Assembly: GCF_000337675.1 (NCBI RefSeq)
Contig: NZ_AOIB01000014.1
Location: forward strand, 56,942 to 120,941
Length of the DNA stretch: 64,000 nucleotides
Direction of reading: 5' to 3'
Source of the DNA: Natronococcus amylolyticus DSM 10524
GTDB lineage: Archaea; Halobacteriota; Halobacteria; Halobacteriales; Natrialbaceae
Shown piece by piece: positions 53,802 to 56,450 of this stretch (the stretch's first letter is position 1; each line of letters opens with the position of its first letter). The translations under genes and the position numbers were made by a program. Under the pieces are notes generated by a model, which made no database searches, was not told where the DNA came from, and saw only the letters and a list, made by a program, of their open reading frames with translations.

Positions 53802-55769
53802 CTAGATCTCGGAGACGACGTCGTGGCTCTGGGCCAGCTGTTCGGCGTCCTCGTCGAGCAGCGCCACGACGAGGTACGGCGCGTACGACTCGAAGTACTC
53901 GACCAGCGCCGTGATCCGCTCGGCGTCGATCGCCTCGAGGGAGTCGAGCAGCATGAACGGCACCGTCTCGTAGACGTCGTGGACGAGGTAGCCCGCCAGC
54001 GCGAACACCAGTCCCGTCACCTCGCGTTCACTCTCGCTCAGGTGCTCGATCGCGTCCTCGTAGGCCGCGCCCTCCTCGGTACTGCGGACGATCTTCAGAT
54101 CGAACGAGGACCGCGAGACCTTCCGGCGACCCTCGCGGACCTCCCGCGTGGTGCGGTCGATCCAGATCCGATCGAGGTTGCCGTAGCCCAGCGTCTCGAG
54201 CAGGTTCTCCATGTGCTCGTTGAACGCCTCGACGGCGTCCTCCTCGATGCGATCGATGCGGGTTCGAAGGTCGGTCAGCTCCTCGGTCGTCTCCTCGCGG
54301 CGGCTCTCGAGACCCTCGCGCTCGCCGAGTCGGTCCTCGACGTTGGCGATCTCGTCTTCGATCTCGTCGCGCTCGCGCTCCTTGCGCTCGAGTTCGAACT
54401 CGAGCTGGTTGACCTCGCGGTGTTGCTCGAGAATGTCCTCGGAGCCGTCGCTCTCGAGGTCGTCGATCTCGCTTTCGAGGTCGTCGATCTCCTCGGTGAG
54501 CGACTCGCGCTCGTCGGTGAGATCGTCGGTGCGGTCGCGCCGGCGCTCGATCTCGTCGTCGATCGAGTCGAGGCGCCGATCTGCCCGGTCGTACTCCGTT
54601 CGGTTCTCGTTTATCTCGGTGAGCGTCGCCCGCTTCTCGTCGAGTTCGTCGTCGATCGCCGAGCGCTCCTCGAGTCGGTCCTGGTGGACCCCGCGAAGCT
54701 GCTCGAGCGTGCTCTCGATCTGATCGGTAGCGACCGACGAGCCGCAGGTCCAGCAGGTGACCGTCTCGGAGTCGCTGTCGGCCAGCAGCTGGTCGGTAAC
54801 GGCGCCGCCGTCGTGTTCGTGACCGTCGTCGCCGAGGAACTCCCCGGCCTCCTCGAGCAGCCGTTCGTTGAACTGCACGGTCCGCTGGAGCTGCGAGATC
54901 TCCTCGTTGAGATCGTCCTTCTGGGACTGTAGCGAGTCGATTTCGGCCTCCAACCGGCTGACGTCGGCTTCCTCACCCGTCGAGAGCTCCTCGAGCTGTG
55001 CCTCGACCTCCTCGCGTTCGTCCTCGAGGGCCTCGATACTCTCGCGTTCGGTGTCGATCCGGTCGCGGGTGCGCTCGAGGTCGGACCGGGTGCCGCGGAG
55101 TTCGTCCAGTTTCGTCTCGAGCTCGGAGCGTTCCTCGCGGCGGGTTTCGACGTCGACGTTCGTCGCCTCGAGCTGTGCTTCCGCTTCCTCGAGTTCTTCT
55201 CGGAGAGACTCGATCTCGTCACTCACTCGCGTCCGCTTGGCCTCGAGATCGGGAAGCCGATCCTCGAGGTCGTCGAGTTCGTCGAGTTCGTCGTCGATAC
55301 GCTGCTTTCGCTGTTCGAGCTGCTGGATCTCGGCCTTGATCGCGTCGGTGTCGACCGGACGCATGATCAGGTCCCGGAGCTCGTCGCCTCGAGCGACGGC
55401 CCGACGCGCTTCGTTGGACTCGAGCAAGAACGCGAACAGATCCGCAACCTCCGGATCCTCGAGGTAGGGGTCGCCCTCCGTGACGACGGTCCCGTTCTGA
55501 CGGTGGAGCGTTCGGCGGTACGTCTCGTCGCCGAACTCGAGGGTAGCTTCACCTTCCTTCGCGTCGGCCTTGAGACTCGCCCGGTCGCTGCCGAGTGCGG
55601 CCATGATGCCCTGGAGCAGCGACGTTCTGTTGGTCGCGTTTCGGCCCGAGAGGACGGTGATCCCCTGCTGGAACGAGACGGTCGTCTCCTCGATACCGCC
55701 GATGTTGCTTACCGAGAGCGTCGTCTGGTCTGGAGTCTCCCGATTCGATACGTTCTGGCTCGTCTTCAT
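53802..55769 (-). CDS. Archaea-specific SMC-related protein (Sph-like coiled-coil ATPase)
   Basis: A 655-aa SMC/Rad50-type protein. The N-terminal nucleotide site is G42-R-N-A-T-N-R-T-S50, a P-loop where Lys is replaced by Arg. Two long coiled-coil arms (about 140-330 and 350-520, rich in heptads of Glu, Leu and Arg) flank a zinc-hook-like C339-W-T-C342. The C-terminal lobe has SESEREVTGLVFALAGYL (signature) and VPFMLLDSLEAID (Walker B with Ser where Glu is usual). Such proteins are common in Natrialbales and sit beside rdfA. Probably a structural ATPase with the upstream gene's product. The ATG at 55769 was chosen over 55820. Confidence 0.93.
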   Translation of the reverse strand: MKTSQNVSNRETPDQTTLSVSNIGGIEETTVSFQQGITVLSGRNATNRTSLLQGIMAALGSDRASLKADAKEGEATLEFGDETYRRTLHRQNGTVVTEGDPYLEDPEVADLFAFLLESNEARRAVARGDELRDLIMRPVDTDAIKAEIQQLEQRKQRIDDELDELDDLEDRLPDLEAKRTRVSDEIESLREELEEAEAQLEATNVDVETRREERSELETKLDELRGTRSDLERTRDRIDTERESIEALEDEREEVEAQLEELSTGEEADVSRLEAEIDSLQSQKDDLNEEISQLQRTVQFNERLLEEAGEFLGDDGHEHDGGAVTDQLLADSDSETVTCWTCGSSVATDQIESTLEQLRGVHQDRLEERSAIDDELDEKRATLTEINENRTEYDRADRRLDSIDDEIERRRDRTDDLTDERESLTEEIDDLESEIDDLESDGSEDILEQHREVNQLEFELERKERERDEIEDEIANVEDRLGEREGLESRREETTEELTDLRTRIDRIEEDAVEAFNEHMENLLETLGYGNLDRIWIDRTTREVREGRRKVSRSSFDLKIVRSTEEGAAYEDAIEHLSESEREVTGLVFALAGYLVHDVYETVPFMLLDSLEAIDAERITALVEYFESYAPYLVVALLDEDAEQLAQSHDVVSEI

Positions 55770-55841
55770 ACAGCCCGATAACGCGGCCGGGCAAATAGGT
55801 ATTGTCCATTCAGCTTCCACCAGGACCGGATTCAGCTCTCG

Positions 55842-56450
55842 TTAGGCTGAACAGTCGCAGGCTCGCTCCTCGAGGAGTTCGCGCACTGTATACTGCTGCT
55901 GGCACTCCTCGCAGGTCACCGTCACGGAGACGAGCACGTCGAACTTACCGATGTCGACGACGTCGTTGCGTCGCAGTTGGGCGATCGTATCGCCCGTGAC
56001 CGCCTCGGTCCGGTTCTGGAGCGCACCCAGTTTCTCCTCGGCTCGCTCGAGCCGTTCCTCGTCGCTCGGGGTCGCGAGCTCGGCCTCGAGACACTTGGTG
56101 AGGTGGTTGTAGACGGTCTGGTGGGAGACGAAGTTCGATTCGACGTCGTCGACTGGGACGCCGTCGCGCTCGAGTTCGTTGCGCGTCTGGACTCGAGTCC
56201 CGCTCGTCACGTCGTCGGCGCTGAGCAGCCGATAGGTGTTCTCGATCTCCCCTTCCTTGTACGAGACGCCGGCCGTCTCGAAGGCCGCCTCGAGGATCCG
56301 TTGGTTGACGATCCTCGCCAGCTCTCGCGTGCTGTACTGTTCGTCGCCCGTCCCGGTCCAGTACGAGACCAGATCCTCGTCGAGTCCCGAGAGCGAGTAC
56401 GTCTCGGCGACTCGGCCGAGCTTGCAACACGTCGCGTCACGGTCAGCCAT
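55842..56450 (-). CDS. rdfA: Rod-determining factor RdfA-like protein
   Basis: A 202-aa protein that I match to haloarchaeal RdfA, a factor required for rod cells in Haloferax; the match is from memory of the family. The N-terminal half has a conserved helical block, YSLSGLDEDLVSYW then STRELARIVNQRILEAAF. A heptad-like middle segment (about 125-150) and a C-terminal zinc ribbon follow, with CEECQQQY and CDCSA. It is transcribed ahead of the SMC-like gene with a 72-bp gap, so both probably form one operon and act together. The ATG at 56450 was chosen over 56477. Confidence 0.85.
   Translation of the reverse strand: MADRDATCCKLGRVAETYSLSGLDEDLVSYWTGTGDEQYSTRELARIVNQRILEAAFETAGVSYKEGEIENTYRLLSADDVTSGTRVQTRNELERDGVPVDDVESNFVSHQTVYNHLTKCLEAELATPSDEERLERAEEKLGALQNRTEAVTGDTIAQLRRNDVVDIGKFDVLVSVTVTCEECQQQYTVRELLEERACDCSA

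Follow-up and report, generated by a model that had tools for sequence, protein, structure and literature searches.

The SMC-like protein encoded in the window, by which we mean the whole stretch of 64,000 nucleotides analysed, is an archaea-specific SMC-related protein (ASRP) of the Sph2-4 type, in which Arg and Ser stand in place of the P-loop Lys and the catalytic Glu of the ATPase head. Judged from its relatives, this catalytic-residue swap is not peculiar to the window locus and belongs to the whole known family. We favour, with moderate confidence, a reading in which the protein would bind nucleotide but be deficient in hydrolysing it, and would serve as an SMC-like clamp or scaffold that helps, together with the neighbouring RdfA, to organise the chromosome and set cell shape.

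A profile search assigned the protein to the NCBIfam family NF045487 (ASRP, which holds Sph and coalescin) with 684.8 bits against a cut-off of 300 and over the full model, in agreement with the Sph-family membership proposed in the preliminary description. Its reading frame starts with an ATG at 55769 and is open over the full length. The AlphaFold2 model (pLDDT 89.8; 91 for the Walker A block) found its closest PDB folds among the heads of Rad50, SMC, and MukB, the top match being a Rad50-ATPgammaS complex, and by this model the fold of the ATPase head is intact. The hook Cys residues, Cys-339 and Cys-342, are located between two helices (residues 141 to 313 and 348 to 527) that are predicted to form coiled coils, as the same description had stated. 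Rad50/SbcC shares the head fold and the zinc hook with the window ASRP, which in contrast is shorter, falls far below the Rad50 cut-offs, and has none of the Lys, Glu, and switch His. Both Rad50 proper (31–60 bits against family cut-offs of 700–1087) and SMC proper (38.7–43.2 bits against 567–729; a zinc hook instead of a hinge) were ruled out, and the genome has its own Rad50 besides the ASRP. The closest known counterparts are the haloarchaeal Sph proteins (Sph1-4; PMC9389158, PMC11276520), with which the window protein shares sequence family, zinc hook, length, and an rdfA neighbour; nothing essential differs, and H. salinarum Sph2 carries the same Arg and Ser. In the trees, the window ASRP is nested among the haloarchaeal ASRPs; it is an unremarkable representative of the Sph2-4 type. 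A second ASRP in the same genome (L187, 5065–7029) is similar in sequence, has the same Arg and Ser, and is without any rdfA; its contig also carries integrase-like and Orc1/Cdc6-like genes.

Table 1. Features of the rdfA-ASRP locus, in window coordinates.
Feature	Position	Strand	Basis or conservation
rdfA, 202 aa, 72-nt gap to the ASRP gene	55842..56450	-	PF21811
Promoter-like element AATACCTATTTG; its ATACCTA ends 26 nt before the ASRP ATG	55792..55803	-	Unique in genome, spacing kept
ASRP/Sph gene, 655 aa	53802..55769	-	NF045487 and AlphaFold2 fold
Derived Walker A, residues 42-50, GRNATNRTS, Arg48 for Lys	55620..55646	-	Arg in 113/115
Zinc hook CWTC, residues 339-342	54744..54755	-	Both Cys in 115/115 homologues
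Derived signature motif, residues 577-581, LSESE	54027..54041	-	Invariant, 115/115
Derived Walker B, residues 606-610, MLLDS, Ser610 for catalytic Glu	53940..53954	-	Ser in 113/115

In ABC-type ATPases, the P-loop Lys touches the phosphates, the Glu of Walker B polarises the water molecule that attacks, a switch His senses the gamma-phosphate, and a Ser/Thr together with an Asp holds Mg. Instead of the residues of a competent SMC-superfamily ATPase (P-loop Lys, Asp-Glu in Walker B, an LSGGQ-type signature, and a switch His), the window ASRP presents Arg-48, Asp-609 followed by Ser-610 (residues 605 to 613, FMLLDSLEA), the signature LSESE, and ALLDEDA in the switch loop, where the His is gone. 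We evaluated these positions in 115 distinct haloarchaeal homologues of the window ASRP. The Walker A pattern is GxNATNRTS, with Arg-48 in 113 and Thr-49 in 114 of the 115; Asp-609 is invariant, and the two homologues without Ser after it have Ala. Also invariant are Glu-581, Glu-612, and Asp-615, and the switch-His loop reads ALLxEDA. Arg-48 and Ser-610 are part of a wider derived signature, GxNATNRTS ... LSESERE ... LDSLEAID ... ALLxEDA. These pocket motifs rank among the best-conserved columns of a protein whose median column identity is 61%, only 85 of its 655 columns reaching 98%.

The preliminary description had noted Arg and Ser in these places and had allowed that canonical relatives might expose them as sequencing errors, proposing an alignment with the Sph family as a check. 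That alignment argues for the opposite. Across 131 loci, the Arg is encoded by CGA, CGG, CGC, CGT, AGA, and AGG, and the Ser likewise by six codons; the fixation of both residues in 113 of the 115 homologues from many genera, together with this synonymous codon variety, indicates that the swap is real and selected on the residue. That the locus holds a sequencing mistake, a decaying pseudogene, or a gene under relaxed selection is a negligible prospect, refuted by the conservation and the codon variety alike; the full-length open frame also speaks against it, as do the genome's own SMC and Rad50 (L030, L036), which are canonical and retain GKST, Asp-Glu, and SH between them.

In some ABC transporters, degenerate sites bind nucleotide with little or no hydrolysis. 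The loss of Lys, Glu, and His in the window ASRP, with Thr and Asp frozen, fits nucleotide binding of that kind. The window ASRP belongs to the haloarchaeal Sph branch and is a zinc-hook, Rad50-like member of the SMC superfamily, presumably a homodimer, encoded beside its partner RdfA. In this branch the head has been rebuilt: the Thr that coordinates Mg and the Asp of Walker B stay, while the P-loop Lys, catalytic Glu, and switch His gave way to other, nearly invariant residues. Under the favoured reading, the heads would bind nucleotide, or at least hold the engaged geometry, with very slow hydrolysis or none, and the protein would serve as a clamp or scaffold, not as a motor, much like the slow or non-hydrolysing scaffold that the preliminary description had called plausible. 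RdfA would tether or load Sph, a contact suggested by genome context; together the two would organise DNA and also, by a direct or an indirect route, rod shape.

A point against this reading is that binding or turnover can survive a Lys-to-Arg change in a P-loop. The head could still be a working, slow ATPase, with Arg-48 making the phosphate contact and another acidic residue acting as base; the invariant Glu-581 and Glu-612 could be such substitute catalytic residues. The invariance of Asp-609 and Asp-615, the Mg site kept by Thr-49 and Asp-609, and the intact modelled fold would all suit such an enzyme. We nevertheless regard it as rather unlikely, since the canonical Glu is gone from every haloarchaeal ASRP sampled and its place is taken by Gly, Ser, Ala, or Arg according to clade, unlike the conservation of a working site, and in the clade of the window ASRP the Lys is lost as well.

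A search across the phylum found ASRPs outside Halobacteria, all of which kept the Lys where inspected. Four of the nearest (L150, L152, L153, and L155) have a Walker A of the PNA[ST]GKTS type and a Walker B of the LDEL type. One of them, on a plasmid of Methanohalobium evestigatum (L150), belongs to the same family and shares the CxxC hook and an adjacent RdfA homologue, already so named in the public record; it differs from the window ASRP in its canonical APNASGKTS and Asp-Glu and in the position of the RdfA gene, which lies downstream there and upstream in the window. Within Halobacteria, a second branch that includes H. salinarum Sph1 (ASNFQGKSS, LLDGIG; Lys kept, Glu to Gly) retains the Lys, with Gly, Ser, or Arg for Glu. 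H. salinarum Sph2 reads GRNATGRTS and LLDSLEA, and a few haloarchaeal copies pair Lys with Ala (GPNASNKTS/MDALEP and GENASNKSS/VDAIEM).

Trees inferred after removal of the motif columns split haloarchaeal from methanosarcinal ASRPs with 100/100 support, and the loss of Glu maps to one change on the haloarchaeal branch. The Lys/Arg changes number two to three depending on the tree; support for most inner branches is weak, and the outgroup branches are long. From these sequences, it is likely that Glu was lost first and Lys later. In a more specific account, an ancestral active RdfA-ASRP pair, still present in Methanosarcinales, would have lost Glu on the haloarchaeal branch, and the Sph2-4 type would have changed Lys to Arg as well, making the haloarchaeal Sph proteins pseudo-ATPases. 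These would work as hydrolysis-independent clamps that act in gene conversion and cell shape, their engagement being set by RdfA or by protein levels. We hold this account tentatively, at somewhat less than even confidence.

The pairing with RdfA, drawn in the preliminary description together with the remark that missing co-occurrence would speak against it, is strongly reflected in the genomes. Among 81 Halobacteria genomes, 67 carry both families, none an ASRP alone, one RdfA alone, and 13 neither (Fisher p 4e-14, a value overstated because the genomes are related). An rdfA gene lies within 400 nt of about 85% of the Arg-type ASRPs with readable flanks, of 14 of 15 Sph1-type ASRPs, and of all four methanosarcinal ones. 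Distances between RdfA proteins track those between their partner ASRPs (Mantel r 0.82; 0.75 inside the Arg type), a value reached by none of 2000 permutations, which leave shared species history in the correlation. Adjacency in Halobacteria has been reported before in 42 of 54 cases (PMC10869688), and the adjacency seen here is a confirmation of this published synteny. Outside Halobacteria, RdfA homologues stand directly downstream of the four canonical ASRPs of Methanohalobium and relatives; two of the four pass the PF21811 cut-off and the other two fall just below it. Since these homologues adjoin catalytically canonical ASRPs, the sequences indicate that the ASRP-RdfA pairing is older than the catalytic loss. 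Orphan ASRPs with no adjacent rdfA also exist, the second copy in the window's genome among them, which leaves room for an RdfA that is dispensable or that acts in trans. Sulfolobus coalescin ClsN is likewise of the ASRP family and, per the literature, has a zinc hook; in the S. acidocaldarius genome, used as a control, the ASRP family cut-off was passed and a PF21811 search found no RdfA.

Published phenotypes of Haloferax paralogues, distinct from the window copy, concern rod shape, motility, and gene conversion. RdfA (HVO_2174) is needed for rod formation in Haloferax, and rods are lost in delta-sph3 as well as delta-rdfA (PMC10869688); sph2 has the opposite effect on shape, and gene conversion is reduced in all four sph mutants (PMC11276520). 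The introduction of PMC13286277 states that Sph3 deletion gives only rods, contrary to the original report, in which delta-sph3 gave only disks. The Haloferax genetics fits an architectural factor acting on DNA and shape. Sph could alternatively be a coiled-coil protein of purely cytoskeletal function, similar to intermediate filaments, in which nucleotide plays no part and which has no role on DNA. The loss of the catalytic residues would agree with this, as would two observations of PMC10869688, rods on overexpression of H. salinarum Sph1 and the abolition of rods by deletion of sph3; its authors suggest a cytoskeletal-like role. We consider it improbable: few columns of the protein are as well conserved as those of the pocket motifs, and the need for all four Haloferax Sph proteins in normal gene conversion (PMC11276520) points to DNA.

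SMC-type proteins are usually explained as ATP-driven machines. If the whole studied archaeal branch gave up hydrolysis, the published Sph phenotypes would need a hydrolysis-free explanation, and the branch would be a case in nature in which an SMC-like fold keeps its architectural role apart from its motor role; the canonical pairs of Methanosarcinales would provide a matched active comparison. The ASRP family, the rdfA adjacency, and the shape phenotype are already published. A statement that haloarchaeal ASRPs lack catalytic residues was not found in the ASRP description (PMC9389158), in two reviews (PMC9764264, PMC11946384), or in the genetics papers; subscription literature was largely outside this search, and an earlier mention is possible.

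The gene directly upstream of the ASRP gene, described beforehand as rdfA-like, matched PF21811 with 240.5 bits against a cut-off of 27, over model positions 1 to 195 of 195. The AlphaFold2 model of its product (pLDDT 94.9) is small and all-helical, and a search of solved structures with it returned no PDB fold match (best E 0.46). Towards the C-terminus, RdfA has a CxxC..C arrangement, with Cys-180, Cys-183, and Cys-200 each kept in 90% or more of 79 homologues. By its model, RdfA is a small helical protein of apparently new fold that carries this Cys motif. Its Pfam matches to HTH_40 and zinc-ribbon are weak and below cut-off and, given also the lack of a PDB match, the idea that RdfA binds DNA is no more than a guess. 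Searches of a phage collection found no RdfA. Two other genomes of the phylum, both non-haloarchaeal, have lone RdfA homologues with no ASRP nearby (L195, 1526–2104; L196, 5273–5965), and one haloarchaeal genome (G072; L198, L199) has three RdfA-type genes or fragments and no ASRP at E 1e-40.

The preliminary description took the two genes probably to share a transcript. The sequence casts doubt on this, since a conserved promoter-like element of the ASRP gene itself, AATACCTATTTG, lies 26 nt ahead of the ASRP start codon. A TATA-like box is expected at about this distance before the start of a leaderless haloarchaeal transcript. The string AATACCTATNTG has a single match in the whole 4.4 Mb genome, namely the element before the ASRP gene, and the spacing of 26 nt recurs in Natronococcus, Natronorubrum, and Natrinema (Natrialbaceae). 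The element could be the site of a specific regulator and not a TATA box alone. The two genes lie on opposite strands in 25 of 126 adjacent pairs, which also speaks against a common transcript; read-through from rdfA into the ASRP gene is possible. Variant forms of AATACCTATTTG precede orphan ASRPs without rdfA.
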